Below are positions 28,590-53,925 of a stretch of 64,000 nucleotides of DNA, piece by piece; the stretch's first letter is position 1; each line of letters starts with the position of its first letter. The notes beneath the pieces are model-generated. The model was not told the origin of the DNA and did not search any database. It saw only the letters and a program-made list of their open reading frames with translations. Position numbers and translations under genes: made by a program. The stretch spans positions 3,359,501 through 3,423,500 of the forward strand of contig OW028583.1 in assembly GCA_932294295.1 (NCBI GenBank), read 5' to 3'. Source of the DNA: Alitta virens (taxonomy: Eukaryota; Annelida; Polychaeta; Phyllodocida; Nereididae).

Positions 28590-28925
28590 ATAGGATTTTC
28601 ACGGAGGTTCTCTGTATTTCCACCAGGTGGCTAAAACAGAATAGGCCTACTGCAATTCTATCGGCTGAAAAGTTCCCACCCTTGGCTGTGATTGGCTGAA
28701 GCAAAGTGCATCCTAGCAGTAGTATTTTTAGTGCCTTTAAATGTATATTTGACACTTTATCATTTGGTTGATTTTGTTATTTTTCTGAGAAAGGTATATT
28801 TATGGAATTAGTTAGTAATTACCTACTGTGTCGGAAAAGCAAAATGAGTAATAAGAGGAGAGAGACTTATCATATGTCTTGCTGAATTCAGAGCTGTTCA
28901 GTGAAAAGACTCTAATTCTAGCTAA
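28590..28925 (+). repeat. R1 repeat with CTCF-like core
   Basis: TTTCCACCAGGTGGCTA near 28618, with a CCAAT box in reverse (GATTGGCTGA) 60-80 bp away; inverted copy at 14395-14730. Confidence 0.65.
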
Positions 28926-30439: not shown

Positions 30440-30530
30440 CACAGTAGCAGATTAAGGGGGGGGGGGTTTAGGAGGTTTAATTTGTCAACCCCCCTTGAAA
30501 AAAAATCTGGATCCACCCCTGCTACATGAA
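30440..30530. repeat. GGATCC/poly-G palindromic short element
   Basis: AGTAGCAGATTAAGGGG and CTGGATCCACCCCTGCTAC are imperfect inverted ends around a G-run and C-run. Duplicate at about 51550-51650. Confidence 0.6.
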
Positions 30531-30869
30531 AATACCCCATCGGAAATCGAATAATTATTTTGTTCTAAGTCATCTCATCATTACGTCTGTCACTGGCTGA
30601 TCGGACAGACTAACTTAACTGCACGACCAAATTGACATATTTAAGGCTGGATGCCTGTACACTGTATACAGCACATAACACTACCCCTGGTGGATTCTAC
30701 AGAACTAATCAGTGTAAAGATTTCGACAAAACACTTGCAGTTTTCAAGTAATTAAGTTTATTGCTATAATGACAATATTGAACAATAGCAATTTGATAAT
30801 GCATTTGTTCTAAGTACTTGTAATAATATAACTGCTAACCCACCACCTTTAACACCAGTGGTATATACA

Positions 30870-31137
30870 GTTAGTTTCATAAAATATGGTCGACTCTAGC
30901 TGTCTGTAGCGACCTGTACCGGGCTATGGTCTAAACATGCTAAAGCCAGCTGCTTCTGTCCACTTCTATAGCTAATAATCGGCTTACATCTATCACCAAA
31001 TACATTTATACCTTGGTAAATGTAAGAAATTAATCTAATATATCATAAATATTGTACTTTTAGATCCGATTTTGAGTAGCCAGCAATTACAGCTTTGTCT
31101 AGGTTCAATTTGATGGGCCGTTTTTAATGAAACTAAC
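30870..31137 (+). mobile_element. MITE family M2
   Basis: GTTAGTTTCATAAAATATGG to CCGTTTTTAATGAAACTAAC: both termini intact, 268 bp. Confidence 0.8.
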
Positions 31138-31551
31138 CGTATATCAATTAATATACATAATTTGAATATTTTATATGGGTTACACTGTCACAATATATAA
31201 TCGAGTCACCATGTACCAAAATTATTCAGACATTCAACTTGTAATATTTACCTTGTAACCATGCACAACGATCAATACAAAACCAGAACAATAGCTCACA
31301 TATTTGCCATCAATATTTAAATGATACAATGGAATATCTGGTGCCATATCAATCCCATAACAGTTTCAATTTGCACCAAATTCTCATGGTGTCTGAATAA
31401 TGTTCGATTAATCTGTACAATCATATAAGCAATTTTAAATCAAAGCAAATATATTAATTAGGCAAAATAATGTGATGTAAATAATTGGAATGTACTCATT
31501 TTGAGATTCTCCTGCAGGGGTATATGGTCCCATTATTTGTGCAACTTAATC

Positions 31552-31556
<5 letters not shown>

Positions 31557-31586
<30 letters not shown>
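31557..31586. repeat. (TA)n microsatellite
   Basis: About 15 TA units; shorter in the duplicate at about 52651-52675. Confidence 0.9.
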
Positions 31587-31589
<3 letters not shown>

Positions 31590-32580
31590 AGATAAAGTCA
31601 TAACCCTTTTGCCATACAAATTGTCAATTAGTAATTAAAATTGTGGAGTTACAACAAGACCCAAACAATAAATTTTTTTGAAAGTGATGATAGTGAAGTA
31701 ACTCAGATCAACATAGGAGCTATTTAAAGGTGTGTATAGAATGACTGCTTTAAGAACAGTTTATAATCTGAGAAGTTAATCAGTTTTATTACTTTCTTAA
31801 TCAAAATGTCTTTAATGTAATTAGTTCACTTCTTCTAAGTCAAGATATTTAAGCACTTTAATTATTAGATATCAATGATATTTAGGCACTTCAATTATTA
31901 GATAGCAATGCCATGGAGCTAATAATTCTCAACACTAGCAAAATATCCAAAATAATTAGGCAGAAAAGTTTTCAGTGTCTAGTTAGTGTTCTTCATGTTT
32001 ATCACATTTGTTTATCTTTAGTGTCTGAAGTTGAATTAATGGTACTTGACTCAAAAACGTTTGTCACATGCATGTGTCAAGTGTGTACATCTACTTGTGT
32101 AGACTTTAGCTAGCCAGAATCGACCTACATAGGAATTCTTGGAATTTGACATTTTTGATCCAGCTTTTTGCAATAAACACTTTAGCATACCTTATATTGT
32201 TGTTATGTACACGAGGACTGTTCTGTTTGCTATCGGCTCGCACTCAGATTTTACTGAAAAAGTTACTGGAAACATCGTTTTAAAGAGCATTATCAAATTC
32301 GCATTGGCTGCTTCAAGGGATTCGCTATTGTCACGCCCCCAACTGCATTCTGGGAGTATTAGTCACAAACTTCCACGCCCCTAGTGAATAAAAAATTTTA
32401 ATTTGAATTAGCTCTGTCCTGTCCATAGTTTCTTAAATTTGACAATTGAAATAGTTGAAATATCATTTCCAAATATTTTCAAATAATCACCAATTTATAA
32501 CGTTAACACAAAAGCTTATCAATGAAATGTGAATTCGGAAATGCAACAGAAATAAATTAAAATTGTAGGAAATCAACCAT

Positions 32581-32833
32581 ATCTGAGTGTAGCACTGGAA
32601 CCGCAGTCTCCTTCTCTGTAAAGCCTGCAGCATTTTTTTCATGGTTTGAGATTGGCAGAGGATAAGCAGGGCTATGATTGGTCATTGCGCATCGTGGTTT
32701 TTGAATGGTTGATTTGAACGACCCCCCTCTATTATCAGCCAATCAGACACCAGAGACAGTATCAGCCAATCAGACAAAAGGCAGGATCCTGACTAAAAGT
32801 CATGTGGAGGAAGGGACCAACTTAATCTGAGTG
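32581..32833. other. 244-bp presence/absence segment between 9-bp direct repeats
   Basis: ATCTGAGTG occurs at 32581 and 32825. The right duplication has one ATCTGAGTG and lacks the intervening 244 bp. The segment carries GATTGGCAGA, GATTGGTCA and two AGCCAATCAGAC boxes. It is either an insertion with a 9-bp duplication or a repeat-mediated deletion from the other copy. Confidence 0.75.
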
Positions 32834-32893
32834 CGACACAACAGAAAAGAGGTATGTCTAAACCTAGAGCAGGTGTATTTCGTGTGGCAAACG

Positions 32894-32899
32894 TTTATT
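32894..32899 (-). terminator. candidate polyadenylation signal of cGLR-A
   Basis: TTTATT on the plus strand is AATAAA on the minus strand, about 170 bp after the stop codon. The same hexamer is in the duplicate copy near 53700. Confidence 0.5.
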
Positions 32900-32947
32900 A
32901 AAAAGCTAGGTCCCACAGAAGGTCGAAATTGGACTTGTAACTAGACT

Positions 32948-33080
32948 TCGGCAAACGCTTGGCAGACAACTGGTTTCTGGTTAATTTGATTCTAATTGCT
33001 ATATTTCTTATCCGTGCATACTTTGGCAAACGTTAGGCAAACAACTGGTTTCTTGGTTAGTTTGATTCTAATTATTACTT
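32948..33080. repeat. 67-bp direct repeat at the 3' end of cGLR-A
   Basis: GGCAAACG, CAGACAACTGGTTTCTGGTT, AATTTGATTCTAATT and TTTCTTAT occur twice. The second unit runs into the stop-codon region of the last exon. The right duplication has an extra partial unit (53757-53925). Confidence 0.8.
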
Positions 33081-36000
33081 TTCTTATTCGATTGCATGTA
33101 TTTGTAGGCACCAAAAGCCAACAGGCCTATTCCCACAGCAGCTGCTGCTGTGCCAAAACCAATACCGGCCAAGTTGTCACTGTCTTCCTGTTGCACAAGA
33201 TTGCCTCGTGAGTATGGATGTACGGCTCTGTAATCATCATCCTCATCACTGGAATCATCCCTGTAGACAGCAGGTGGCTCACGATAATCAGCAAAAGGTG
33301 CCTTACAACATTGATCTACAGGCGAATTGAAGACCTTTCTTGCCACTGTCTCGCTGCTCAAAATTCGTTTCAGCCTATCAGCGATATTTGACCGAGTTAT
33401 GGGAGACAGGTCACCCAGAATGTTAACGGTGTCGTCAAACGGATGAAATAGGTAACCTGCATAAACAAATATATATAAAAATATATTAAACAGCCACTTT
33501 CAAAAACCTTAGGCTTACAAAAAGTTTGACTATTTCACTCCGTACATAGTTAAACTTAACGAGCCTTCTGCTACATTCAGTACCAATCGTTGCATAGATT
33601 GCTGTGCATTTCAAATGATACCTTGCGTCAGTTATTAGAAAGACTGTTAGGCACTCCCCGACATCTTTTCTGCTGATCTTTGAATTACATGATCTTTGAA
33701 TTACATGATTTACCTGAGTCCAGACTGTTGGCCATTTCAAGTAAAACATCCTTCAGTCGTAGTGCTAAATTTTTCTCAGACCAGTCAAGAGGCGGTTTTC
33801 TATCAGTCATTTTGATAATTTGGTTTTTAATGTAGAAAGACACCATCTTGTCCAACCCTGGCTCTTTATCTCGAACCACCTTCAAAGAGATCATGTATGA
33901 TACTATTAGTAGGATTCAAAATAAATGTCCACCTGTTTTTGAGAATATTTTTCATGAATGGTAATAAACTGAGTATGCCATAGTTATCTGTAACAATAGC
34001 GCTCCTGAAAATGACACATTAGCCCAAATTACTGCCAAAAGTTGGCCCGATTCGCCAATGTAGGGCCAATGTTGGGCCAACAACATGGCATGTACTTACA
34101 TTATAATTAAAGGGGGAATGAACATTTACCATATTAGTTTTCTGATAATTCCCTTGATTTTGATGTGTAATTTTTACATGATATCAGCCCTTGGCTCTGG
34201 TCACTGCAGGGAATTAAAGAAAAGTCTATACATGGTATGCTAAACCAACCTTGAGCATACGGACAATTTTCTTGCGGCATCCATTGTCTGGACCATCAAT
34301 ATTCACCAACTTGCTTTTCTCTTCAACGGAGAAGGAATGGCGCCATAAAGTAAGGTCATTGTCTCTAGGCTTTGCAACATAAATTTCCTTTTTTCCTTTA
34401 TTTGTAACCTCGTACGCTGGAACTAAGTCGACAAAATACCATTCCTGGCCATTTTTGTGAACCGTTATCCTTATGGCCGGACCGCCGTACTTCAACTTGA
34501 CTTCCCCCTTTAGCCTCGGGGTGTCTTTCTCACGTTTGTTCAACCATTTCTGCAACTCGCCATGAAATGTATCACGAACTTGGAACGGTAAAATCTCATC
34601 CCTCTCTGACAACCGTTTAAATTTCTCAGCAGCAGCTTGACTTTTAGGTCTCAAATGTCCATAACGAGTCGCCAAAGGGTCTTTTTCCACTTCAAGGAGA
34701 TTTCCATCATTCAGAACGAACATGACATCAAATTCTAGCTCTTTCCCTCCAACCTGTGGAAAGTAAAAAAATACCATTCAAAGCATGTTAATCCCTCTGC
34801 CATATGGATGTCCATAAATAAGGAAAACCTGAAACCCAGGCCGGCATACCCAAAGCAAGAAAAGATCATTTTTGAAGACAGATGGGAGGATTCCTGTTTG
34901 GCAGTACTTAACAACATGCATGTGTTGCACCTGTGGTGGTGGTGGATTAGGGCTTTACGTCCCGTATTTCTGCACCTGATGGGCTAATTAGAACAGGCAG
35001 GGAAAACGTTTAGCTTCAATCGATGTATACACACCATTTTTCTAGTAAACGAAAGTATTTTGGTTGATGGTGGTGGTATCTATTTTCAACAGAATTTTAC
35101 CGTTTAAATTATAGGCCTGACTCCATGGGCCAGGGGCAGTGGCTAGATCATGTCACAGAGGGGTCAGCTAATTGAAATAAAATGTTTGGGTCTCTACTGA
35201 TTGGCTAGTTTGGAGCCCAATCTTGCCTTGTTTGCTGGAGCCTTTGCTCAGGGGTCTTTTGTAATTTTACGGGATCAAAATGCCAGGAATTGGAATAACT
35301 TGTTATGTATGGCATCCATCTTCAAATTTGTACTTGTCTTCTCCTAAGGTACTTCCCTTGAGTTTCAATGAGCCTAGCAACAATAGATCTGAAGATATCA
35401 TGTCCATAAAGGTGGTGGACTGACAAATGGACACACCTTCGCAATTCACATTACCTTAGGCCATCTACATTTTGGTTGAAGGTAATAAAAATTATGTAGA
35501 AGGTACAGTAGAAGCCCACCACTTCATCTGTTCAATCTGTTATGCAACATTTGGATTTGGCAAAAACACCCATGTTTGGGTACTTTGACGAATAAACCCT
35601 TAACCAAATATTCTTTGTAAGTGTCAAGCCTGTTTCTGAAATTTTTGCCATATATAAAGCCACAATTTACATGCGTATTTTAGCCTGTTCGAGTACTTCA
35701 TAGTTAAATAAACCTATAACAAATATTATTACTGTAAAAGACAAGCCTGTTTTTGTAATTTTGCCATGGAAAAAGTCCCAATTAACATAAATTTGTGTAT
35801 ATTGGCAATATCAACCATGTTCAACTAAGTACTTCTTGGCTGAGTTAACGCGTATAAAAAATATTTTTTGTTGGTGTAAAAGCAATTAAGATTTACCTTA
35901 AGCCCTTCATAGGCACTTCCAGTGAACTCCATTCTACTCAACATTTTCTTCTCCCTTTTGAGATGGTTTTCCAGTTCATGCATTATCATGACGTGTCTTT

Positions 36001-36410: not shown

Positions 36411-36756
36411 CTTGACTCAGTCCAGGAAGAGCTTCTGTTCAGCAAGGATTACTCTGTTCAAATTACTCTCGCATTGAGGGAGGATTATCTTTACCGATAA
36501 GGATTATATTTTGGCAACAGCGAATACACGAAGGAACTCTAATACACAAGGGAATACCTCCTGCAATACTCACTAAGCAGTGGAGGCAGCAGTGTTTTCA
36601 CTTTTTGAGAAGTGCTAGCTCTTTTCCTTAGTGGCCCTGCCCCGGTCACATTTTGTTCGTCTGTACATTTGTTATTGACTGATTTCTGTTTGACTGATTT
36701 CTGTAGCCCCATGGGACTGGCTTGCGTTGTGCGTAAGCCAGTCCCAAACCCATGTA
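36411..36756 (+). mobile_element. internal 5' leader of the LTR retrotransposon
   Basis: Non-coding leader with a repeated GACTGATTTCTGT (about 36677-36703). It is cut by the DNA element starting at 36757 and is inferred to continue at 47540. Confidence 0.45.
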
Positions 36757-36772
36757 TTGAAAAACCTTGGGG
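36757..36772 (+). repeat. left terminal inverted repeat of the RecQ/DUF6589 transposon
   Basis: TTGAAAAACCTTGGGG, perfect inverse of 47522-47537, with TA immediately outside. Confidence 0.9.
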
Positions 36773-37024
36773 GTCGCACTTCAACTGACGATTGTAAAGA
36801 AACTAAAACGAGTCGGGCCATATATAATACCTCAAATTAATCGCCAAATACTTAGCTACGTGGGCGCTAACAAACCAATACTGTTCGCTAGATTACCTGC
36901 TGTCAGCACCAGCTTTTCCTGAAAAAGTTGATCAACCAAATGTACTTGAAATGTCCGTGAATGTTTTGATGAACTACGCATGCGTGACTTAATAATTAGG
37001 CCACGCCTCTACAAGCTGGGCTAG

Positions 37025-37032
37025 TGACGTCA
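37025..37032. promoter_or_regulatory. CRE octamer upstream of the helicase gene
   Basis: TGACGTCA lies 81 bp before the helicase start codon, in a relatively GC-rich stretch that also has GCATGCGT (36978). Likely part of the helicase promoter. Confidence 0.45.
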
Positions 37033-37112
37033 CGGGCACTTGAGATCCACCAAAGTGGCGGGAACAGTCGATCCTTGCAGTTCGGCTGCTAACTGTGAAA
37101 GTTTGAATAGAT

Positions 37113-37769
37113 ATGAATAGTTTACAATCAGGCCTGGCTTTTGTTCAAAGACTCCTGCCTTATCAACTGAAGGAGGAGCAGCTTCGACTTATTAGTGCTG
37201 CAGCACAAGGACATCATACTTTGGGTATCTTGCCCACTGGCTTTGGCAAAAGTGTTTGCTTTGCACTAGTGGGACCTTTGCTTGATCATGTATGTTAATT
37301 TTATACAGAACACATTGCAAAATTAATTTAATACATCTAATTCATTTTCAATTGAGATGACACTTATTTTATATTTAGATTGCATTGGTCTTAGTGTAAT
37401 ATGTTCTAAAATTTCAATAATATTAATAATTGTTATTATGCAATGCAGCATTAGTATAATCTAAATTTATTAATTGTCAATGGGATGTATATTTCCCAGT
37501 CTGGGAAGTATGACTTTTATTTAAATTTTCCCCAATGACTCTTAAGTCCTAATCAATGGGCTTGACAAAAAAAAAATCATCAAAATTCATTTATTGCACC
37601 AAGTGTACAAACCAACTCTGCATGAGAAATTCGAGAAACTAAATATAAATTAATAATTAAGATTTTTTTTCTTTATAGGATTTTTAACAAGTGTGACTTA
37701 TGGAAGGCTAATAAATAACTTGATTTCTTAATTGCCAATCTACCAACACCATATTATGCATCTACTCCA

Positions 37770-37813
<44 letters not shown>

Positions 37814-40686
37814 AATTGATCTGACTTTAGTGACCTTAAAAAACATAGTAGACCAGCAAAATGCAAGTTCTATAATTCAAATAGGAGCTGCAATATAACC
37901 TTGGTTATATTGGCCTATAAGTTTGCAATTAAGTAAACATTGTGTAAAGATGGGAAATTCCCAAATTTTCATATAAATCATGTCCTTAATTGTCTTTCCT
38001 CAAAGTGCATATATATATAGGGCGTAATAAATCATGAAAACTGCATTTTGATGGATTAGATGGGTGACCTAATGGTAAGGCCATCTCTGCAAAGATTCCG
38101 GGTTTGATCCCCAGCCTGGGCACTGCAACGGATTTAAATGTGTAACATGGTGTGGACTCAGAGCAGCCTTATAATCTCATCATTACATCTGCAGCGATCT
38201 GCCTCTGGCAGCTAGTTATATAAGCTGACTAAGCTTCAAACCCAGTAGCACTGAGACACAGAAAGCTGCCTATTCATAAGACAAATACAAAACATTAGTT
38301 TTTCAAGAATGCACATTTTATTACATTCTCGTGTATTATATTTAAAATTTTATAATAACTTTGCCTCATCTGGGTCAACCAGAAATAACAACTTTGTGTA
38401 CACACTGTATATAATATGAATCAAATAAATATATGCATAAGTAAATTTAATAAATTTAAGATTAACAACAACTAGTTGTGTACACACTGAATACTCCAGC
38501 TTCTTGAATAGTATAATAATAGAGAAACCAAGTGGTGCAAGCATAAATTTAAAAACTTCAATTAAATAATTAAAATACTAATTATTTTGGTTAATATAAA
38601 ATCTTGCACAACCTTTTCATAAAATCTCACACAACCCCAACTTGTAAATAATTATCTCACTGCACTTATGGCTAATCAGACTATACCATACAGAATTGGA
38701 CTACAGTAAATGATAAATTATGATGATGGTTATAAATAATGATTTATTCAAGATAAACCCGCAGCAAGTTCCTCACATTACATTAGTGATTTCACCTCTG
38801 AAGAGCCTCATGTTAAACCAAGTGGCCCGGTGGTCAACAGTCAACTGGCTTAAACCAGTAGCCATCCTCAACCAAAAGGAAATGACAGATGAACAAGTAA
38901 ATGGTGAGATTTCCAGGAGTACACATAATATAAGACAGTTCATGGTCTAGGTTATCATAACATGCAAATTCCAAGTTTTGTAAATTAAAAAAATATATAT
39001 TAGGTCATTAAAAACATTTTTGATAAGTGTATACTATATTTGGATATTATATTTCTGTCGCCATAGATATACAACATGGAAAGTACAACTTAATCTATGC
39101 TAGTCCAGAGGTCATCACTACATCAATCTGGTGGGACTGGCTTAGGAAATTTCAAACACAGGTGTCCCTATTGGTAGTTGATGAGGTTCATTGTTTAACA
39201 CAATGGTAAGTAGATATGTGTCATGGTGCGGGAAGTTTGCACACTATGCTCTTTACTATATATGTATCATTTCTAAAACAGATTGACCCATATTTAGACA
39301 TGAATTTTCAAATGTTACCAGGGGACAGACTTTCAGAGGTCATTATAAACTGATACCTCAGTTGAGATCAAGGCTTTGCAAAACGCCCATTATGATGTTG
39401 ACAGCCACTACAACCACGGTAATGGTGGATGAAATTCTCAAATGTCTGCATCTCCCTAGAGAAAGCATCCAAATAGTGGCAGATGTGCCTGACAGGTTTT
39501 TACTTAATTTCTTCCAATCCTTCTTTTTATATCATGTTCAGGGTGCAGTTGAACTATGGACAATCAGATCGATGACACCCTGAACATGGACAATTTCAAA
39601 GTAAAATGTCTACATAATTTCACGTTCAGATTGTCAATATTCTGGCATGTCAACATTTTCTCTACACATTAAACATTCAATTACCTTCTGCCGTTGCAGA
39701 CCAAACATATACTTAGATATAAAAGAGGCAGATACCTTCCAAAATGCTCTGCATACTTACTTGGATATGATACGCACAAATGGCAAGCTAGCACCAAAAG
39801 CCATCATATATGTCAGGTAAATAATTTCAACCCATAGCAGCTGAGATGAGTGTCTGCTGTAATTTTCATCTCAATGTAATGGACTCTTAAGGAGCGTTCC
39901 ACTGGCACAACTTATTTATTTAATTGATACAGGTTTTATCCTAGATGCATGCTCAAAAATCAAACTAGTAATGGCCCCCCTCTAGTCATACAAACTTATG
40001 ATCAATACTGGAAAATGTGAAGCGTAAGTAACCAGGGTTTTATTCAGCAAACACTCATCTCTTATAAATAGGTATGCGCACTTCATTACGCATCAACCAA
40101 CGACCAATGTCTTTGTATCGGTTCATGCAGCTTGCAACTGTGTCTGTTTCCTGGTTACAGGGAAATTGATACTGTGGCAGACATCTTCAGTTGGATGGTG
40201 ACTACACTAGGAGAGAAAGGTTTCTCAGATCCAGAGAAACCTTGTGTCCAGAATCGATTTGTCGACATGTACCATTCAGGCACTGACAAAGAAAGCCAAC
40301 ACAGAATTGCCAGTGATATTGTGCAAATTAATTCCAACTTGCGCTGCGTAATTGCAACAGTAGCATTTGGAATGGGTATCAATTTACCTGACGTTGATTA
40401 TGTAATGCACTGGGGTAGTTCCCCTGATATCATGTCTTACTGGCAAGAGGTTGGTCGATGTGCACGTGATGGCCGACAGGGCAATGCTACACTTTTTGTG
40501 TACCCTAGATCACTAGACAAAAGACGAGTGGACAACAGCCTCAAGCAGCTCATAATAAATGTTAAAGATGGCAGAAAGTGCTTTCGTCGTGGTGTTCTGG
40601 AGCATTTGGTAATCCCAGAAATGAGCAAAGAAAGTTTTGAAAAGGCAATGAAAAATCCTAGATGTTGCAAGACATGCATGATTTGA
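37113..40686 (+). CDS. RecQ-like DNA helicase carried by the transposon
   Basis: Six exons: 37113-37289, 38765-38903, 39067-39205, 39322-39495, 39700-39816, 40161-40686; 423 residues. RecQ motifs are in order: YQLKEEQL (motif 0 area), LPTGFGKSVCF (Walker A), VISPLKSLMLNQV (Ia), VVDEVHCLTQWGQTFR (II plus aromatic loop), MLTATTTTVM (III), VIATVAFGMGINLPDVDYV (V) and YWQEVGRCARDGRQG (VI). The tail has CFRR followed by CCKTC, a minimal RecQ zinc-binding pattern, and stops there; no winged-helix or HRDC domain follows. The family unwinds DNA 3'-5' using ATP. DEVH replaces the usual DEAH. Its place inside the inverted repeats suggests a role in transposition or repair of the donor site (inferred). 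Confidence 0.9.
37772..37808. repeat. (TA)n microsatellite in helicase intron 1
   Basis: About 18 TA units. Confidence 0.9.
38050..38270 (+). mobile_element. SINE family B in helicase intron 1
   Basis: GGTGACCTAATGGTAAGG, GGGTTTGATCCCCAGC, GTAACATGGTGTGGACTC and TAAGCTGACTAAGCTTCAAA identify family B, with a central deletion. Host SINE insertion into the transposon intron shows the element has resided long enough to collect SINEs. Confidence 0.8.
38271..38764 (+). other. helicase intron 1, remainder
   Basis: AT-rich; no coding or known repeat. The preceding part, 37290-38049, is also featureless apart from the TA tract. Confidence 0.6.
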
Positions 40687-40826
40687 AATACAGAACAATA
40701 GTGATGTCATAGTACATGCTGATTGGCAACACTGTTATTAGTTGTTATTATATCCCGTATGCCAAGTTGTAAATTTTGTGACAACAGCACCTTTTCTTTG
40801 TTTGGAAATGGATGAGCTAATGATTA

Positions 40827-40832
40827 AATAAA
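40827..40832 (+). terminator. polyadenylation signal of the helicase gene
   Basis: AATAAA 141 bp after the stop codon. Confidence 0.6.
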
Positions 40833-41240
40833 TGTTTGTACATAGGACTCTGACACCTGGCTTTGACACTTACTAATTAACTTTAAACATTTGACATGAC
40901 CACCATTATTGCCCATTCACATGCATTTTTGAATTAATTGATAACTTTTAATCTGCTCAATTAAGCAAGATAACCAATTTTAATGCCTCCAAGTAACCTT
41001 ACCTAATTTCAAACAAGTGCCTGCAAATTCTAATGATCAAAACTTAAAATTTCAAATATATGCAAGTGCCCCTCATACATCCCACTTTACTGCCCATTTG
41101 TTGTAGCTAGTCTCATGACGCTAATTTCATCACAAGACGTTTTGGCTCCTCCATTTCACCCCCCAAAACTGTATGTCATAATTCAGGCAGGTTAATACTG
41201 CTGAATCATTAAGCATTTACAATTTAAGTCCTTAAACATG
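40833..41240. other. spacer between the convergent transposon genes
   Basis: About 400 bp without ORF or repeat; it contains the 3' ends of both transposon genes. Confidence 0.6.
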
Positions 41241-44200
41241 TTAGATTACAGCTTTCTTACACATATCCAGGTGTTGTGACTTTGCAAATAACTTTCGTCC
41301 AAGAGCCGTAGGAGATTTAATTCGGTTTGTCTGTTGATATTCTTCAAAGCCATCATGATTCCTTCCTGGAATGTAATCGCACAGAGCTTCTGCTTGATAC
41401 TCTTGCACAAATCTCTTTATATCAGCAAGGTACGCATTGCTCCTCTTCTTGGTTGGGTGACTTCTCATATCCACTATACCAGCTGAGGTGAACATGTTGT
41501 CAAGTTGCTTTCCAAATGGTCCGGACATCTGCGCACATCTGCCTATTTCGCGATCAGTGTAGTTTCCTCTTGCGTTTTTGAGCATTTCTGAAAAGCCGAA
41601 AATTTTTTCTATAAATAAGGTAGTAATGATTTATAGTCAGCAGTTACTTTGTTATGCAATGTGTTTTTGCATTGAGCCATCATGTCATGATATTTTGTTA
41701 CTGTCACAAAAATACCTTCATAAATGTAATGAAAGAGCTAATTTTTTAATCTCAGGTATGTAACCTTGATGTAAAAGCCAAGGCTGCAAGTAGTTGCACA
41801 ATGTGTGGAGATCCGATAAATCAGACATGAGTTATAGTATATAGAAATGTTATAACTTAATATCTTTATTTAATAATTGTATTTTCTAGAATATTGTTAT
41901 TCTTACCTTTGAATTCCAAATTTAGGTGTTCATTGCACAAATCTAGGCCAATGTTGCCATTGGGCTTTCCACTGGGATTTGCTACACGGTTCCATATGAA
42001 ACTGTGACGGACATGAGAAGGGGCAAACCCGGCAACACCTACAATGATGAGAACACTAATTAATTTTGCTAGTAACAGCAGTAATCATACTAATCTATTC
42101 ATAAATGATCTGTTTATCCATAATTATTATTTTTTTGTGAATTATTTAAAGAGAATTTTTAAAATATCTGAAAGTGATGGTACCCTTTGGACCACTTAAC
42201 AATTGTGGTAATTACTGAGAACGATTATGAGAAATCCTACTCCACTCAACATTTTATACACTTGATTTTAAAGTGGTACTTACATGACAGGAAGTAGTGT
42301 GCATTGTTGAAATATTTTGGATGTGCTTTCCAAAATTGCACTAGGTCTATCTTCCAATCATCAACCATCGCTGGTCCATTACCTGACCGAACAGCCCCTC
42401 TTCTGGTAGTGTGTAGTAGGCCTTGCCACATTAGACTCTTCGTGTGGTTCAACACATGGTCGTCATGCTCTGCTCCAAGCTCACAAGCTTCTGAGCAGTA
42501 CCACTTTTCTGTAAAAGTTTTGTTTTTATCATTATGAAATATCCTTGAAAAATAATCTCAAAATGTTAAGTTTGGTAGACAAGCAGGTGTTACTGTACAA
42601 GGTCACCACTTTTACACTTGTAGGATCTGCCTGTATGGAGAAAAAGGCGCTGACAGAAAGATAAAATAACATGTCCTAATTTAATCTAATCTGAAATTAT
42701 ATTTTATTTTTGGATTTTTTATCGAGCGACTCATTGACAATGGTGTAATACAACAGCCACATCTAGCTAGAAATCATTTAACACTGAAGTTTATTAATAA
42801 AACTTCCACAAACAAACTTTTTTCAGTCTCACATACCTGGCAGATTTTCATCTGGGGATAACCCTGCACATTTTCTGTGATACCACTGCCATCCTCTGCA
42901 ATCTTTTGCAAGTTCGCACTGGACCATTTCTGTATTTTCAAGCTTTCTGTTACACCAGCAGTATGCATAAAGTATGCTATCCTCGCAATCCTTGCAGCAG
43001 ATCCAATCTTCATTTTCTGGAATGGTAGATTTTATGCAGCGTTCGTGATACCATTGTGTCTTACAAGACAAATTGGCGCACTGAACCAGTGCCCCCTTTG
43101 ATTCTGTAAATGATAAAAGACCAGTTTTTAATAGCTACATCACAGTATTATTTTAAATTGCCCCATTTAAATGTAGAGGGGAGAGAAGGCAAGACCTTTT
43201 ATAAAAGAGCAGGGGGGGGGGGGTGGTCTGATATATTTTCAATATTTAATAATATCATTAAAATAAAAGCTGGTCAACGGGTCAGGTATTTCACAATTTA
43301 AAACTTGAATTAAATTCATTCAATATCATAAATGGAACAATTCGAAAGAAAGTGTCCACCTGCAATTTATGTACCTTTGCCACAGTTGCAAACTACTGTG
43401 ATGTCCTCTTCATTGTCAGGCTCCCTGTAAGCCGTAGCGGCCAGGTTGATGTCTTTGGAAGATGGAGGATTCCAACTGAAATCCACCACTTTATAGGCCA
43501 GTCTCTCGAGCCAAGCATGTTGATCTGCAGATGAGGATGGAAAGTCTGGTGGCATATCGTTGGTGGAGCTCAAGCCACATAGCTTCATTGCTGTTAGAAC
43601 AATGTATCCTTCAGTAGCAAACTGCATACAAAAAAGAGTTATACATTTTTTGGTATTATAAAGTTTAATTAGATAATTCAAAACTTTAACTAAATAACTC
43701 TTTTAGTCTGATTATGTCATATCATGCTAGATATCTTTTTGTCCTGTCAGTACCTCGTACATGTCCCAAACATGCTGGAAGTTAGCCATGACATCATGCT
43801 TCAATGCTCTGTGGTTGAAATCGTTCTTCAGCTGGCTTATTGTACCTCTGCTTGCTAAACTGCTGGACTTGAAGAATTCATGGTTCGAATCCTGTAAATT
43901 AAGTAATTATCTGTAAATCTAAAGAGGCAGGCAGACAGTCCACTTGTGGAGATTCAATAATTTATTTTCTACATTTAACAAACCTGCAGTAGCAAAACTT
44001 CCTTGTGGAACTCCTGTGGGCAGGGCCACAAGTCTTCCAAACGCTGTTGCGATGTTTCACCATTCAATCTGGCCCTCTTAGCCTTTAGCATTCTTTCAAC
44101 AGACAATCCATCACCACTGACCAGGCTCCCTACGCCACTGTTACCATCCACCATATACCTTTGAAGATGCTCAAACACTACGATCATTCCAGAAGTAGAA

Positions 44201-47200
44201 TTCGGATTGGCATCTAAAGTGCCAATTGTCACCTGAATTAAATACAAGTATACATGTGACTTAGTTTTTTCATAAATTTTCAAAATAGGACAATGACTTG
44301 CTAATATTTGGAACCCTCAGTATGTTAATTAGTTTTTTTCACTTCTGATGTTTTATGACCATTAATAATACAAAATTTTTATAAAATTGGCTTCAGAATT
44401 CACTTGTGGCTAAAAATCCTGGCCAATCTGTCCACTCGTGGGGAATATAAAAATATACCACATAACCATTGGGTCTTATTATAGTACCTGTGTACTATGC
44501 AGTATTACCTGAGGATTTTGCTGCCATATGCAGCCTATGTTTCAAGTTGTGATCTATGATAATTACCAGCTTGGAAGGTTCATTCATTTGCTTGATGTGC
44601 TCATGAGGGACAGCTTGAGGAATTTTCGTCTTCAAATCTGAGAGGAATTCCAGGTGTTCACTTAGCACTGCAGTGACATGGAAAACCATTCTGGATTTAA
44701 GTCTGTCAAAAACTGCAGGGCTGGGGAGGAAGGAAAATGGATCTAAAGATGTTGCTGCAGTGTTGGAGTTTGGCGAAATTTCATTGATGGCTATCCTGTC
44801 TTTTACTGCGAAACACATGGTGAGAAGTTGAAATTTGTTGCTGTTGTTTGTGGTGGAATGTTTTGTTTCTGCAGAAAACTGAACATTGTCCAAGCAGAAA
44901 GAGTAGGTGTTTGGGGTAGGCCCTTCTTTCGATCCATCTATGTGAGCCTGTCAAATTGAATATCCCTATTAATTTACCAAATGGCACAATTGCTACGAAG
45001 CCGCTGCTAGTTGCTGCATAGTATGTTAAATTATGATCTATGTAACAATTGATATATTTCTTATTATTCCATACATTACCTGCAAGCTGTCCCTCCACTC
45101 AAGCAGGCTCTTGTCATGAGCTCTTCCTATTTTGTCCACATGATTTCTGGCAGCTGCTATGCCGAGTGACACTCCCATATGATTTAGAGTCTCGAAGACT
45201 TTATGCGATACCCCTTGTCGCCAAAGTTCCACAGACACACAGGACTGAACAAACTTGAATTGCTTTGGGGCTTTCAAGAAAAGTATGGTAGCCAACAGCT
45301 GGCCAACCTCTCGGTCCAATACAGCCTGAGCTTCTTTGTCATTGAGTGGTCTAAAATATTGAGAACATAAAAAAGTAAATTGACGTTTTTAAATTCCTTA
45401 ATAGTACATATAATACCTAAAAGTGCACACAAGTCTGACATGCTACACTATTGTTATATGGTTGTTTATCACAGACTACATATCATAAAGGTCACATTTA
45501 TTAATGTATATCAGATGTACCACACAAACCTTTTAAATCCTTTTCTGCCTTTTGTCCGGCTTGATTTCACCTTTGCCATGGAAGGTGCCAGTGACTCGAG
45601 GATTGACACAGTTGCTGGCAAGTCTTGTCGTGCCTCCTCTATTGCTGTCTTCCACTTGAATTTAGAAATGTTTTCGACTGTTACTCCTTGGGAGAAGGCA
45701 CTGTCTTTCCTTATATTCTTTACCTGAAATAACAATACAGTGACAATCAATACCAGTAAGATACAAAACAAGCACTACAATACACTGTGTGCTCTCAACT
45801 ACTATTTCACAATTTGCTTACATATATGAAATTTTGCTTTTAAAGTCTAAATAATGGTGGTGCAAGCAAAAATAGTACTGCAGTGTGTCTATGATCAAAT
45901 TATACACTTATGGAAATTTTTATATTTATTTCCTCAGTAAAGGAGTTGATATACAGTTAATATAAATTCATCAATTTTCTCAAGTTGGCCGAGGGTATGC
46001 TTCTGCAGCAATGGCGTAGCTATGGGGGGGGGGCAGTCAAAGGCTGTGTCCCCCCCCCCCAGATTGGCTAGAAAAAACCCAAAGTAGAGGGTGGAGAGTG
46101 AGCCCCCCTGGTGGGCCCAAAAGACATTGTGCCCCCCTGAGTGCCCCCCGCTCTGCTTACCCTAGCTATGCCACAGTAGCAACTAGTTATTGCATATCAT
46201 TCATATCATTCATATGAACTCAACATTTGAACAAATATAATTTATATTAGATTACTATCCTTGTGATATATCCGTATGGTGCTGCCACCTCTCAATTTTT
46301 TTCACACCCAATCTTGACGGTATCAGGTTTACTTACAACCTATGCCAACTCACCGCTCACTAAAGAAAATGTAATAAATGTGATTAAACTAGATTGTATT
46401 TAGCCTCCTCTCGTTTTCGTGGGCGAAGTCATGCACGTTGATTTCTACACTCTAAGGTGTGACTATGCTCGCCAAATTATGCAGGGGTGTATGATGAACG
46501 TTTTTGGAGTAAATATTGGAGCTATACAGCTGGAACTGGGCTTAATAAAATTTAGAAGATTTTAGTAGGCTGACCATACAGGCGGTGACTTCTAAAAACG
46601 GGCGGTGAGTTGACTATAGTAATCATTTTGACAGCTGTATGGGGTGGATGAAGAAATAGCATGTACACAATTGATGGAAAAGCCACAACCTGTGATAGAT
46701 GGCACCCACCAACAAAAACTTGGTTACGCAATACTTAGTCAATTTTAAGGCTAATTTTTAGGGAACATTTCAAACACAAAATCAATATGAAAATGGCTCA
46801 CCTCATTCTTAACAATTTCACATGCCACAGAAACCAAGGCTTTTTTTGCAGCACTAGAAGACTTAATCAGGTGGCGGAAGCATTCTTTATATTTGTAGTT
46901 CTCTAACAGCTTTTTCGCTCGGTGATTGGCAGTGTTGGGTGGAGGGAAAATCTCTTCATCTTCGTAGGCATCGTCATTTGTCTCACAGCTGGTGGAGTAT
47001 TTCCTTTTCTTAATTTCGGGGCTTTCCGTAACTTTCGTTTGCGTGGTCTTCAAAATAGCCCAGCAATTAGTACAAATAAAGTTATTGCCACTAAAAAATT
47101 GACCTGGGTTAGCCTTATTAAAAGCAAAACCAAATGATCTTGGAGATGACAGCCTAGTTGTAACAGCTCTCCGTTTATATCCTTTTTTCTTCCGTTCAAA

Positions 47201-47233
47201 TAGGTTGTCACAGACAACACAAACATCGGCCAT
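41241..47233 (-). CDS. DUF6589-type protein with N-terminal zinc motif and inserted double PHD finger (candidate transposase)
   Basis: Eleven exons: 47233-46802, 45723-45530, 45350-45080, 44947-44567, 44232-43984, 43891-43754, 43621-43375, 43103-42837, 42508-42284, 42038-41907, 41587-41241; 960 residues, all junctions in phase. The N-terminus has CVVC (residues 5-8) and FICTNCW, a C2-C2 zinc-finger pattern, then a basic region. DUF6589 signatures follow: FCLDNVQF, SGDGLSVERMLKAKRAR, PCPQEFHKEVLLLQ, GTISQLKNDFNHRAL, RSGNGPAMVDDW and LCNEHLNLEFK. Between them two PHD fingers are inserted (CNCGKESKGALVQC.., WYHERC, CCKDC; then YCWCNRK, WYHRKC, WYCSEAC). Asp in LDNV, Asp in SGDG and Glu in CNEH could be an RNase-H-like triad (inference). 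PHD fingers usually read histone tails and could steer integration. Confidence 0.85.
45724..46801 (-). other. first intron of the DUF6589 gene
   Basis: Holds one small palindromic element (46012-46174) and otherwise no recognisable feature. Confidence 0.6.
46012..46174. mobile_element. small MITE/foldback with GGCGTAGCTAT ends
   Basis: TGGCGTAGCTATGGGG and CCCTAGCTATGCCA are inverted ends around G- and C-runs and CCCCCCTG blocks. About 163 bp. Confidence 0.65.
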
Positions 47234-47303
47234 TCTTTCTCAATAACATGTGCTTTGACGCACATGCTATTGTTTACAAATGATGTCATTGGCTGCCTGT
47301 TTC

Positions 47304-47314
47304 GCGCATGCGCA
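47304..47314 (-). promoter_or_regulatory. NRF1-type palindrome upstream of the DUF6589 gene
   Basis: TGCGCATGCGC on the minus strand, about 70 bp before the start codon, next to a CCAAT box (CAGCCAATGACATCA). It matches the NRF1 consensus; promoter role inferred. Confidence 0.5.
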
Positions 47315-47521
47315 CAAAAAAAGCCGCCATTGACTGAAACGTCAACATGTCGGAACAGGTCCGGTTGTTTTCACACTTTTGTCAAATAATCCAGTGAGAT
47401 TGACAACATTTAACAGGTAATTTTATAGAATAGATAAACATGAACAAAAGTGACTAATCGTTATATTGATGGGCTCAACTTTATTGCAATAAACTACCGT
47501 CACAGTTCAGGTTCATGCATT

Positions 47522-47537
47522 CCCCAAGGTTTTTCAA
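47522..47537 (-). repeat. right terminal inverted repeat of the RecQ/DUF6589 transposon
   Basis: CCCCAAGGTTTTTCAA, perfect inverse of the left end, with TA immediately outside at 47538-47539. Confidence 0.9.
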
Positions 47538-47539
47538 TA

Positions 47540-48090
47540 GGATGGTTTCAGACTGCCTCGCCGGCCCTGCCTTGCGAGTCTGTCTGTTCGGCGCCGGCCC
47601 TGCCTTGCGAGTCTGTCTGTTCGGGCTAGATTTCTGTAAAGAACTCGCCTCATCTCAAACCATGCCAGGTACTTCAAGATTGAGGCCAAAGACAATCAGG
47701 GGATCGCGTCAGCCAGCTGACAGCCAAGACGTGGCTGGGCTGACGACGGATCCAACACGTGGCACTCAGCCAGCCAGTCAGGTGGCTGAGGATGTCACTC
47801 TCGATGAGCCAACTGGGGGGGGCCACTAGCCTTGTAAATAGGGACTCGCCTCTTCCAGGACGCTCTCAAACTAAGGGTCTTGGTAAGAAAACTGGCAAGT
47901 CCCAGGTTCAACCCCGAGCGCATAGTGAAAGGAGGGTGTTAGAATACTCTGACAAGGAGGCATCTGATGACTCCCCTGCGTCCACCCCGTAATCGCCGGC
48001 GAAGCTGCCCCAAGAGGTCGTGCCCTCCCCAAACGGCGTAGGAGGCGCCGAGAAGCCCTTCCTCCTCTATCTGATGGCCAAGGGGTCGCA
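47540..48090 (+). pseudogene. gag-like N-terminal remnant of the LTR retrotransposon
   Basis: GC-richer than its surroundings. It contains a duplicated CCGGCCCTGCCTTGCGAGTC and an ORF from ATG 47663 beginning MPGTSRLRPKTIRGSRQPAD, rich in Pro, Ser, Gln and Arg. A G-run near 47813-47822 breaks the frame, and the downstream frame continues (KKTGKSQVQPRAHSERR, EYSDKEASDDSPAS). The type fits a gag N-terminus but no nucleocapsid or capsid motif is visible. The sequence stops where the right segmental duplication starts. Confidence 0.4.
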
Positions 48091-48662
48091 TTCAGAAAGA
48101 AAGCAAGAAAACAAACAAACAAATGTGTGTTAAAAAAATTACTAAAAACAATAAGTATTTCTTTGTGTATAAAACTTCTTTTTTTTTTTTTTTCTGTAAC
48201 TTTAATTAATTTTTACTTATTTATAACTTTTGCAAAATCAATTTTGTCTAAAAAATAAAATTAAAAAACAGAAAAAGAAATGCATTATCGCTTCTTTGTA
48301 TCAAAGAAATCATAATATTATTAAAAACAATAAATAAATAAAAAAAAAATTGATATTTTATATGAACAGTAATATGAGTATATTCTGTGTACTTAATTTT
48401 AATATATTTTTTCTGAAACCAACATGCATTATTGCTTGTATCATACAAATCATAATAATGCATGCATAAAGCAAAACAAAAGGTTTTACATTAACTAATA
48501 TAGAGATTAAAAACAATAAAGAAGTAAAAAATTGATATTTTATATTAACATTAATATGAGTATATTCTATGTAATTAATTATAATATAATTTATTGCATG
48601 GTTAATGAATACGTTTATAGTCAGGTTATCAACTGTCACTCATTTATAAAAATTCTGTATTC

Positions 48663-48802
48663 AGAATTGTATGGCAGCTGTGTGGCCTAGTGGTTAAGGT
48701 ATTGACCAGTAAGCATATTGGCCAGCTTTTCTGGGTCCCAGGTATGATTTCCAGTCCAGACAACTATTCTTGAGCTACAGTTACTGGCCAGTCGATCGTA
48801 CC
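48663..48802 (+). mobile_element. SINE family B head fragment (duplicate)
   Basis: Duplicate of 27551-27690. Confidence 0.7.
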
Positions 48803-49089
48803 ACACTGCACGACCAAATTGACATATTTAAGGTTCGATGCCTGTACACTGTGTACAGTACATAACACTACCCCTGGTGGATTCCATCAGAACTATATAC
48901 ACAGTGCTCTTGGGTTAATCAGTGTAAAGATTTCGACAAAACACTTGCAGTTTTCAAGTAATTAGGTTTATTGCTATAATGACAATATTGAACAATAGCA
49001 ATTTGATAATGCATTTGATTATGGATATTCTAAGTACTTGTAATAATCTAACTGCTAACCCACCACCTTGAACACCAGTGGTATATACA

Positions 49090-49418
49090 GTTAGTTTCAT
49101 AAAATAGGTCGACTCTAGCTGTCTGTAGCGACCTGTACCTGGCTGTGGTCTAAACATGCTAAAGCCAGCTGCTTCTGTCCACTTCTATAGCTAATAATCG
49201 GTTTACATCTATTGCCAGATAAATATAAACCTTGGTAAATGTAAGAAATTAATCTAAATTAATCGACTTACATCTATCACCAGATAAATATAAACCTTGG
49301 TAAATGTGTAAGAAATTAATCTAATATATCATAAATATGTACTTTTAGATCTGGTTTTGAGTGGCCAGCTATGACAGCTTTGTCTAGTTTCAATTTGGCA
49401 TGCTGTTTTAATGAAACT
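49090..49418 (+). mobile_element. MITE family M2 (duplicate)
   Basis: Duplicate of 27974-28304. Confidence 0.7.
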
Positions 49419-49699
49419 GTACATCTCAGCTGGTTCTGTCAGATGTTTAATAGGAGGTGTCTCGTACTTGGTGACCATTCTGAGGCAAGTAAAAAAAGCC
49501 CATCCATAGGGTAAATGTGTAATGTTGACAATTATAGTAGGATCAAAATAAACGTCAGTTTGTTTCTTTTTTTCTTTTTTTTTTCAAACAAAGCATGCAG
49601 CACAAATTATACAGAAACACTGGAAGATTGAGATTAGATAAACTATGCACGTCATGGGTGTTACCATCTACCGAAAGAATATAAATAAAAGAAGCTTCA

Positions 49700-50035
49700 A
49701 TATAGGATTTTCACGGAGGTTCTCTGTATTTCCACCAAGTGGCTAAAACAAAATAGGCCTACTGCAATTCTATCGGCTGAAAAGTTCCCACCCTTGGCTG
49801 TGATTGGCTGTAGCAAAGTGCATCCTAGCAGTAGTATTTTTAGTGCCTTTAAATGTATATTTGACACTTTATCATTTGGTTGATTTTGTTATTTTTCTGA
49901 GAAAGGTATATTTATGGAATTAGTTAGTTATTACCTACTGTGTCGGAAAAGCAAAATGAGTAATAAGAGGAGAGAGACTTATCATATGTCTTGCTGAATT
50001 CAGAGCTGTTCAGTGAAAAGACTCTAATTCTAGCT
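49700..50035 (+). repeat. R1 repeat, CTCF-like core mutated
   Basis: Duplicate of 28590-28925. The core reads CCACCAAGTGGC, one change from the left copy in the centre of the motif. Confidence 0.65.
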
Positions 50036-51549
50036 AAAGGTCACTATGAACACATTGGTAGAATTGAATTTCAACATTAATTTTATGAATGAAGAAAACA
50101 GAGTCAATCATTTCAAGTCTTTTTAGTAAATACAATCTTCTACAAACAAACTCAGAATATCTTACACCATTTTTTGTGACGAGTGAAGCCCATAACTACA
50201 ACACATGCGGTAGTCAATAAACTTTAAAATTCCGACATCAGAAATTAACACAGTGGTCAATCAATCTTTCTCATATAATGTAAGACCTGGAATGACCTTC
50301 CTAGCAACATCATGGGCCAAAGTTTAACAATAACTTCAAAGGTGCACTAAAACATCATGGTCTATGATATTCCGGGAACCATCTCATAGCACTTGTAAAT
50401 ATTATGCGCATAAAATTGTAGCCATCCAAGCTCATTCACTAATTACATCTCATAATACACTCTATGCAGCCATCTTGCCATCCATACGACCCCACTATAA
50501 ACTTTGGTTGGTTACGTTTCTGGCGTTGCAACTCTTGTCCAACGTTTTGCCTATCATTATTTCGAAGATTCTAGACGTCTGATTGGCTGAAATGGTGATG
50601 ACGGTCGACCATTCCTGTCCAAATTGAGGTCAAATAAAAAAATATATTTATTGGAAATAGTGTAAACCGTGACCCATCGCGACCTAAAATTCAGGTAAAC
50701 TTATCATAGTGCACCCCACTAAATCTAAGCTTATTCAAGCTTTTGCGGGCTATCCTAGCACTAACACAACATAGTTGTTTACTTGTCATAATACAATTAT
50801 ACTCATAAATGAATGTACATTATCTACTTTATCCTGTATATTTCATCCTATTTATTTATCTTTATTTATTTGCTCCTAACAAACCACGACTACAATACAA
50901 GAAACAGAAACAATTCATATACAATAAAAGTTATCTAGGTCAAGCACCAAGTCTATGGTTACATGCAAATATAACATTAAAAAGTAAAACTAGTGTCAAA
51001 GCCTTTAAATAAAGCTTTAAAAAAGCAACTTTGCAATTGATATTAGTGTGTAATTATGCAATTTATGTCACTTCATTTATTTATTTATTATTATTATTTA
51101 TTTTTTATCACTATATGAATTTATTTCAAATATATTTAAATAGCCTCTTTTTCTTTTCATTTATAATGTAAGGGGTTGCACAATTTTACAGGTTTTTATT
51201 AGCTAGTGCACATCCCCCACAGTATGCTTATATATATGTCTTTTATTGTTTATGTTATGTACTAACCGTATTGAACTATTACATACCGTGTACAAATATG
51301 AAATCTTAAATCTCTCCTTGCTTATGTTCTACTCCTATTATTTTATTTTATTTTACCATTCAACTGTATTCTTTGGTTCTGTTCTACTATCTTTGTTTTG
51401 TACATTAATGCACTCTATACTCTGCTGAGTGTGCGAAATAAAGTAAATAAAAATAAATATAGACAACTTTAATTTAATTATTCAGTTCTAGTGTTGGGGT
51501 TAAATCTATTGGAAAACTTTTAGTCCATTTTGTGGTGTTACATGTATGC

Positions 51550-51650
51550 TACACAGTAGCGGATTAAGGGGGGGGGGGGGGGGTTTGGAGGTTTAATTTG
51601 TCAACCCCCCTTGAAAAAAAATCTGGATCCACCCCTGCCACATGAAAATA
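51550..51650. repeat. GGATCC/poly-G palindromic short element (duplicate)
   Basis: Same as 30440-30530 with a longer G-run; here AGCGGATTAAGG is less mutated. Confidence 0.6.
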
Positions 51651-51974
51651 CCCCATCGGAAATCGAATAATTCTTTTGTTCTAAGTCATCTCATCATTAC
51701 GTCTGTCACTGGCTGATCGGACAGACTTACTTAACTGCACGACCAAATTGACATATTTAAGGCTGGATGCCTGTATACAGCACATAACACTACCCCTGGT
51801 GGATTCTACAGAACTAATCAGTGTAAAGATTTCGACAAAACACTTGCAGTTTTCAAGTAATTAAGTTTATTGCTATAATAACAATATTGAACAGCAATTT
51901 GATAATGCATTTGTTCTAAGTACTTGTAATAATATAACTGCTAACCCACCACCTTTAACACCAGTGGTATATAC

Positions 51975-52240
51975 AGTTAGTTTCATAAAATATGGTCGAC
52001 TCTAGCTGTCTGTAGCGACCTGTAACCGGCTATGGTCTAAACATGCTAAAGCCAGCTGCTTCTGTCCACTTCTACAGCTAATAATCGGCTTACATCTATC
52101 ACCAAATACATTTATACCTAGGTAAATGTAAGAAATTAATCTAATATATCATAAATATTGTACTTTTAGATCCGATTTTGAGTAGCCAGCAATTACAGCT
52201 TTGTCTAGGTTCAATTTGATGGGCCGTTTTTAATGAAACT
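51975..52240 (+). mobile_element. MITE family M2 (duplicate)
   Basis: Duplicate of 30870-31137, with a small terminal deletion (ends GAAACTAT). Confidence 0.75.
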
Positions 52241-52650
52241 ATATCAATTAATATACATAATTTGAATATTTTATATGGGTTACACTGTTACAATATATAA
52301 TCGAGTCACCATGTGCCAAAATTATTCAGACATTCAACTTGTAATATTTACCTTGTATGCACAATGATGAATACAAAACCAGAACAATAGCTCACATATT
52401 TGACATCAATATTTGAATGATACAATGGAATATCTGGTGCCATATCAATCCCATAACAGTTTCAATTTGCACCAAATTCTCATGGTGTCTGAATAATGTT
52501 CGATTAATCTGTACAATCATATAAGCAATTTTAAATCAAAGCAAATATATTAATTAGGCAAAATAATGTGATGTAAATAATTGGAATGTACTCATTTTGA
52601 GATTCTCCTGCAGGGGTATATGGTCCCATTATTTGTGCAACTTAATTAGG

Positions 52651-52675
52651 TATATATATATATATATATATATAT
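52651..52675. repeat. (TA)n microsatellite
   Basis: Shorter counterpart of the tract at 31557. Confidence 0.9.
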
Positions 52676-53756
52676 AAAGAGATAAAGTCATAACCCTTTT
52701 GCCATACAAATTGTCAATTAGTAATTAAAATTGTGGAGTTACAACAAGACCCAAACAATAAATTTTTTTGAAAGTGATGATAGTGAAGTAACTCAGGTCA
52801 ACATAGGAGCTACTTAAAGGTGTGTATAGAATGACTGCTTCAAGAACAGTTTATAATCTGAGAAGTTAATCAGTTTTATTACTTTCTTAATCAAAATGTC
52901 TTTAATGTAATTAGTTCACTTCTTCTAAGTCAAGACATTTAAGCACTTTAATTATTAGATAGCAATGCCATGGAGCTAATAATTCTCAACACCAGCAAAA
53001 TATCCAAAATAATTAGGCAGAAAAGTTTTCAGTGTCTAGTTAGTGTTCTTCATGTTTATCACACACATTTGTTTACATCTTTAGTGTCTGAAGTTGAATT
53101 AATAGTACTTGACACAAAAACGTTTGTCACATGCATGTGTCAAGTGTGTACTTGTGTGGACTTTGGCTAGCCAGAACCGACCTAGATAGGAATTCTTGGA
53201 ATTTGACATTTTTGATCCAGCTTTTTGCAATAAACACTTTAGCATACCTTATATTGTTGTTATGTACACAAGGACTGTTCTGTTTGCTATCGGCTCGCAC
53301 TCAGATTTTACTGAAAAAGTTACTGGAAACATCGTTTTAAAGAGCATTATCAAATTCGCATTGGCTGCTTCAAGGGATTCGCTATTGTCACGCACCCAAC
53401 GGCATTCTGGGAGTATTAGTCACAAACTTCCACGCCCCTAGTGAATAAAAAATTTAAATTTGAAATAGCTCTGTCCTGTCCATTATTTCTTAAATTTGAC
53501 AATTGAAATATTTTTTTCAAATATTTTCAGCAAATAATCACCAATTTATAACGTTAACACAAAAGCTTATCAATGAAATGTGAATTTGGAAATGCTACAG
53601 AAATCAATTAAAATTGTAAGAAATCAACCATATCTGAGTGCAACACAACAGAAAAGAGGTATGTCTAAACCTAGAGCAGGTGTATTTCGTGTGGCAAACA
53701 TTTATTAAAAAGCTAGGTCCCACAGAAGGTCGAAATTGGACTTGTAGCTAGACTTT

Positions 53757-53925
53757 GGCAAACGTTTGGCAGACAACTGGTTTCTGGTTAATTTGATTCT
53801 AATTGCTATATTTCTTATCCGTGCATACTTTGGCAAACGTTTGTCAAACAACTGGTTTCTGGTTAATTTGATTCTGATTGCTATGTTTCTTATTTGCGCA
53901 TACTTTGGTTTCTCGGTTAGTTTAA
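53757..53925. repeat. 67-bp repeat array at the 3' end of cGLR-B
   Basis: Two full units plus a partial third, abutting the stop codon. The left duplication has two units. Confidence 0.8.

Follow-up and report, generated by a model that had tools for sequence, protein, structure and literature searches.

A stretch of 64,000 nucleotides from the polychaete Alitta virens (contig OW028583.1, forward strand; G000:C11:3359501-3423500 in a genome of 671 Mb and 23 contigs), hereafter the window, contains a 10,925-bp element that encodes a DUF6589 protein and a RecQ-like helicase. The element is a genuine, recently active, multi-copy mobile DNA with defined ends and 8-bp target duplications. We assign a probability of about 0.85 to the reading that it is an autonomous DNA transposon moved by DUF6589, which would be a DDE (Asp-Asp-Glu) transposase of the RNase H-fold group to which hAT, P, Transib and RAG1 belong. 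An autonomous-looking DNA transposon had been proposed from the window alone (the original prediction), and this proposal is borne out by ends shared among many copies, by their target duplications and by one empty site. The features that define the element are the following.

36704 to 47628, no strand assigned: whole element, 10,925 bp, TAGCCCC...GGGCTA, with end points common to copies on other contigs
36696 to 36703, forward strand: left target-site duplication, GATTTCTG, 8 bp
47629 to 47636, forward strand: right target-site duplication, GATTTCTG, 8 bp
36755 to 36772, forward strand: left inner inverted repeat, TATTGAAAAACCTTGGGG, 18 bp, perfect
47522 to 47539, reverse strand: right inner inverted repeat, 18 bp, perfect partner of 36755-36772

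The ends were located by comparing copies. In seven of the first eight 5' matches printed, similarity continued outward past the inner repeat for about 50 bp and then ended at TAGCCCC, and the eighth (L007) was rearranged at its 5' flank. On the right side, similarity among the copies ended at GGGCTA. Since the copies agree to TAGCCCC (36704) and GGGCTA (47628) and no further, the element was defined as 36704-47628. This span is larger than the 36757..47537 of the original prediction, in which 16-bp inverted repeats were taken as termini and the TA on their flanks as the target duplication. The repeats are indeed a perfect pair, of 18 bp rather than 16, but they sit about 50-90 bp inward of the element ends. 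The TA belongs to the 18-bp repeat, and the duplication is of 8 bp. The sequence TATTGAAAAACCTTGGGG has just two matches in the window at three or fewer mismatches, where 0.10 would be expected. A 10-bp duplication, GATTTCTGTA, read off the window alone, was cut to 8 bp by comparison with other copies. A Tc1/mariner assignment was rejected on its TA duplication, the noted TA being inside the element. Helitrons lack terminal inverted repeats and target duplications, and the inverted repeats and 8-bp duplication of the element ruled out this class as well.

The genome was searched with two queries, 144 bp of the 5' end and 150 bp of the 3' end, and the resulting counts are lower bounds. The first query gave at least 40 scored matches (98 candidates) and the second at least 32, with eight at 99-100% identity in each case, which excludes the possibility that no other copies share these ends. 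Thirty-one loci were analyzed. Of these, 29 came from the list of 40 5' matches, 11 of them (the window among these) being taken at full length and 18 with some 1-3.5 kb of downstream sequence; the other two came from the 3' list. In the latter two (L035 and L036, extended as L055 and L056), similarity stops short of the outer end; they have a 3' end in common with the element, embedded in another related repeat, and the outer end was not found. A complete end pair was not found within the fetched stretch for c07, c09, c10, c11, L045, L055 and L056. An exact 8-bp direct repeat flanked 22 of the 24 copies having both ends, while c08 and L041 had 8-bp repeats with one and two mismatches. These repeats replace the TA duplications that the original prediction had expected. 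A 9- or 10-bp repeat anchored at the ends was found in none of the 24, and none of 552 mispaired left and right flanks, used as a control, agreed over 8 bp. The target sites have the consensus nnTnnAnn, with T at position 3 in 13 of 22 and A at position 6 in 15 of 22. The joined flanks of 22 copies were also compared with 70 sequences (362,269 bases). For the derivative L040, an uninterrupted stretch of L022 spans the junction with the 8 bp present once (94% identity over 85 bp); the remaining 21 joined flanks had no uninterrupted empty-site match in those 70 sequences.

Three of the 11 loci taken at full length (the window copy, c01 and c02) retain all 17 exons whole and in frame, with GT/AG kept. 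A stop interrupts one DUF6589 exon in c06; deletions, frame changes or missing exons affect c04, c05, c08, c09 and c10; and no exon is present in c07 and c11. The three intact copies are mutually 99.53-99.84% identical over 10.9-kb alignments, and this identity together with their intact genes indicates recent movement. The same ends are also found on shorter copies, whose sizes cluster near 2.9 kb, 0.64-0.68 kb and 0.34-0.39 kb, as expected for non-autonomous derivatives. RecQ and PHD are domains of host type, and nothing more favors the explanation that inverted repeats flank a RecQ and a DUF6589 gene of the host by mere chance. The multi-copy ends, the target duplications, the empty site and the dispersed intact copies refute it, and its probability is negligible.

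Two convergent genes with open in-phase exon chains had been predicted, and the GT-AG models obtained here lie between the inner repeats as expected.

37113 to 40686, forward strand: RecQ-like helicase gene, 6 exons, 423 amino acids, one-frame GT-AG model
37113-37289, 38765-38903, 39067-39205, 39322-39495, 39700-39816 and 40161-40686, forward strand: RecQ exons of that model
41241 to 47233, reverse strand: DUF6589 transposase gene (putative), 11 exons, 967 amino acids, one-frame GT-AG model
42480 to 43395, reverse strand: two PHD fingers of the DUF6589 protein, in the end of exon 7, exon 8 and the start of exon 9; limits set by eye

A Pfam scan of the 423-amino acid protein identified DEAD (E 2e-22) and Helicase_C (E 4e-12) domains, and its nearest solved relative by sequence is WRN (helicase core, E 2.1e-45). 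The 967-amino acid protein matched DUF6589 (PF20231, E 3.5e-31). PF00628 was not listed in the full-length Pfam scan of this protein, even at E≤10; exon 8 scanned alone matched PHD at E 3.1e-6, and a profile of relatives matched the ING/YNG1 PHD at two places. We propose D319, D467 and E838 as candidate catalytic residues. A first structure prediction, from 5 rows, reached a predicted local distance difference test score (pLDDT) of 36. The predicted model of a relative, P0006, had Hermes, the P element, ISCth4, Transib and RAG1 as its best fold matches; Foldseek returned nothing at E≤0.001, so that these matches are not significant, and absence from the match list does not exclude a family. 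The likeness of this predicted model to the Hermes, P-element, Transib and RAG1 transposases suggests that DUF6589 is very probably the transposase of the element, as had been proposed.

The families found among the fold matches can be compared with the element in other respects. The hAT and P elements have 8-bp target duplications, as does the element, and Hermes (a hAT) and the P element were the top structural matches. We know of no RecQ in either group. The hAT proteins carry a hAT dimerisation or BED domain and the P proteins a THAP DNA-binding domain; none of the three was listed by Pfam in the whole protein or in single exons, although the whole-protein scan missed the PHD fingers too. 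The TAGCC ends of the element also differ from hAT- or P-type ends as we know them. RAG1 and Transib resemble the element in predicted fold, and RAG2 carries a PHD finger, so that a transposition machine with this domain has a counterpart there; RAG1 and Transib duplications are of 5 bp, in contrast to the 8 bp of the element.

The association of the two genes extends beyond the window. Genome searches listed 93 hits (73 loci) for PF20231 and 118 hits (47 loci) for the RecQ query. A DUF6589 locus lies within 12 kb of 30 of the 47 RecQ-like loci, 28 of them in convergent (tail-to-tail) and two in divergent arrangement, whereas about 0.0026 per locus would be expected by chance. The linkage is therefore far above chance, although several pairs are copies of one family and the pairs are thus not all independent. 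Separation of the two genes at conserved positions was not seen for the family of the element. What weighs against a general pairing is that no partner within 12 kb was listed for 17 of the 47 RecQ-like loci and 40 of the 73 DUF6589 loci. Some of these loci reflect detection: L058, listed as unpaired, contains a RecQ C-terminal frame, and c10, listed as a lone RecQ, has DUF6589 exons by DNA similarity. The 40 DUF6589 loci without a RecQ hit are also what favors the view that RecQ is a passenger without a part in transposition. However, the pairing, tail-to-tail in 28 of 30 cases, persists at loci where RecQ is 26-60% identical to that of the window, and such retention would be unlikely for a passenger. 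We consider the passenger view improbable.

Related pairs were also found, and copies of other RecQ-DUF6589 families begin, for instance, near C5:25.005 Mb and C7:5.314 Mb. In a second family (F2), RecQ is 45% identical to that of the window over the last exon, and the left end begins with TAGCC followed by a hairpin, recognized by eye in L066 and L067. Patterns for the F2 right end gave no match near C5:25.01 Mb, and the short relatives L068 and L069 had no matching flanks, so no F2 duplication was found. The F2 left-end motif AATTCCTATGTAAGTCGTTCC has 431 genome matches at three or fewer mismatches (219 and 212 by strand), where the reversed control gave 8 and 5, and F2 thus seems to be the source of hundreds of short copies. 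A distant convergent RecQ-DUF6589 pair, L065 (G000:C2:10635571-10640980), has a RecQ 28% identical to that of the window, and no PHD finger was noticed by eye in its listed frames. DUF6589 and RecQ-like proteins occur in Diadema antillarum (P0001, P0009), on contigs both of size 4,341,312, and in Patiria miniata (P0006, P0008), on contigs both of size 19,347,424; that each pair shares a contig is judged from the equal sizes only.

A hairpin separates the terminal TAGCC(C) from the inner 18-bp repeat.

36712 to 36746, forward strand: left subterminal hairpin, 15-nt arms, 93% complementary, with a 12-bp longest perfect stem in the window copy
47549 to 47586, forward strand: right subterminal hairpin, limits by eye, stem imperfect in the window copy

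Folded as DNA, the left end of the window copy gave a z of -5.63. In L037 the perfect stems are of 16 bp (left) and 13 bp (right), and neither was matched in 500 mononucleotide shuffles per end. The longest perfect left stem is of 10-16 bp in 21 of the 24 copies and of 4-6 bp in c06, c08 and L041. On the right, 14 copies reach 13 bp and L046 reaches 8 bp, and the remaining nine, among them all seven long copies, reach 3-5 bp, which indicates that there is no strict need for the right hairpin. Folding of the L040 right end together with its flank gave a z of -2.26, and 6 of 200 shuffles were equally good.

These features suggest how the element could move. The Cys-rich N-terminal part of the transposase would bind the inner 18-bp repeats; the protein would then pair the ends, cut at TAG/CTA and join them to target DNA with an 8-bp stagger, with preference for nnTnnAnn. 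The ING-like PHD fingers may tether the transposase to chromatin carrying trimethylated lysine 4 of histone H3 (H3K4me3) and so guide integration; the PHD of RAG2 performs a comparable tethering. The RecQ helicase could open the hairpins beside each cut or unwind DNA during gap repair, and the latter action would also yield internally deleted derivatives.

The element can also be compared with described superfamilies. The original prediction knew no superfamily with this pairing. However, PMC3627910 states that RecQ has been reported by others in Academ, and the title of the paper defining AcademH presents it as an Academ lineage that encodes a helicase and occurs in animals and fungi. RecQ is also present in KolobokH and, in Kolobok-1_CCri, lies on the complementary strand (PMC9587614); AcademH and KolobokH have been named as sources of fungal helicase domains (PMC10799480). 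With RecQ published in Academ and KolobokH and a helicase in AcademH, the idea of a transposase-RecQ pairing is not new. Kolobok-1_CCri and KolobokH resemble the element in combining a DDE transposase with RecQ. Nevertheless, Kolobok duplications are TTAA (PMC9587614) and Kolobok termini are 5'-RR/YY-3', while the element has varied 8-bp duplications and 5'-TA/TA-3' termini. AcademH duplications are reported as 9 or 10 bp and those of AcademX as 3 or 4 bp, a difference related to their helicase and nuclease (PMC10045372).

The plan of the element, with a helicase encoded beside the transposase, is that of AcademH, and we favor, with some reserve, its assignment as an AcademH member with a target duplication shorter than reported. 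The reported 9 or 10 bp contrast with the 8 bp seen here, which is exact in all but two of the 24 copies, none of them having a 9- or 10-bp match. The AcademX and other nuclease-bearing Academ elements differ in having a 3- or 4-bp duplication and a nuclease, as opposed to 8 bp and two genes only. The nuclease of nuclease-bearing Academ is of the XPG type. All 16 XPG_I hits lay more than 12 kb from any DUF6589 hit (nearest, 33.5 kb), another point against AcademH. Eight of the hits have identical scores (G000:C3:49397291, 49485289, 43677412, 49108529, 49567009 and 49774946; C4:5961372; C7:34374140) as would a separate multi-copy element with an XPG-type nuclease, which may be an Academ of the nuclease-bearing kind in this genome.

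As the 8 bp fails the reported AcademH value, the element was not filed as AcademH, though it would work like AcademH. It may instead represent a superfamily of its own, separate from both Academ and Kolobok and marked by a DUF6589 transposase, a RecQ in convergent orientation, TAGCC ends that bear subterminal hairpins, and duplications of 8 bp. The 8 bp differs from the duplications reported for AcademH, AcademX and Kolobok, and the name DUF6589 was not met in the literature searched; yet the element shares its general layout with AcademH, and the TAGCC ends were seen in only two families and the duplication in one. We regard this possibility as rather doubtful, and an AcademH variant as more likely. 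Somewhat more speculative is the fuller proposal that DUF6589-RecQ elements form their own superfamily in animals, and perhaps in fungi, with a hAT/P/RAG-fold transposase that in this lineage bears PHD fingers for reading histones, TAGCC ends each leading into a cruciform-forming hairpin, a dedicated and usually tail-to-tail RecQ that opens these hairpins, and 8-bp duplications. The 8-bp duplication distinguishes the element from those described helicase-carrying transposons for which a comparison was possible.

Two further repeats lie inside the element.

47559 to 47624, forward strand: 33-bp tandem unit, two copies (47559-47591 and 47592-47624), at the 3' end of the window copy
38135 to 38258, no strand assigned: repeat inside RecQ intron 1, with window matches at 8721-8828, 23671-23784, 23808-23914 and 15758-15825

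The 33-bp unit is single in five other copies printed with their right end and doubled in the window copy. The intron repeat is dispersed, roughly 120 bp long and tRNA-like in look, which gives the impression of perhaps a short interspersed element. An Rfam scan of the window gave no matches at gathering score. Elsewhere in the window, a 5.6-kb direct duplication (26970-32595 and 48094-53646, 96.8% identical) has its second copy starting 466 bp past the right end of the element, and 32825-33492 and 53632-54292 (83%) may extend it. Two tandem arrays, at 21645-23117 and 59365-60409, were recognized by offset self-matches, with repeat lengths of roughly 164 bp and 77-78 bp. An open frame of 483 amino acids at 54674-56122 on the reverse strand contains a reverse transcriptase domain (RVT_1, E 2.4e-30).

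These findings point to a likely role for a "domain of unknown function" that has 93 listed matches in one animal genome. They may also add, beside RAG2, a second case of PHD fingers within a transposition machine. With three near-identical intact copies and exact ends at hand, the role that its own RecQ may play in a cut-and-paste transposon becomes testable in cells.

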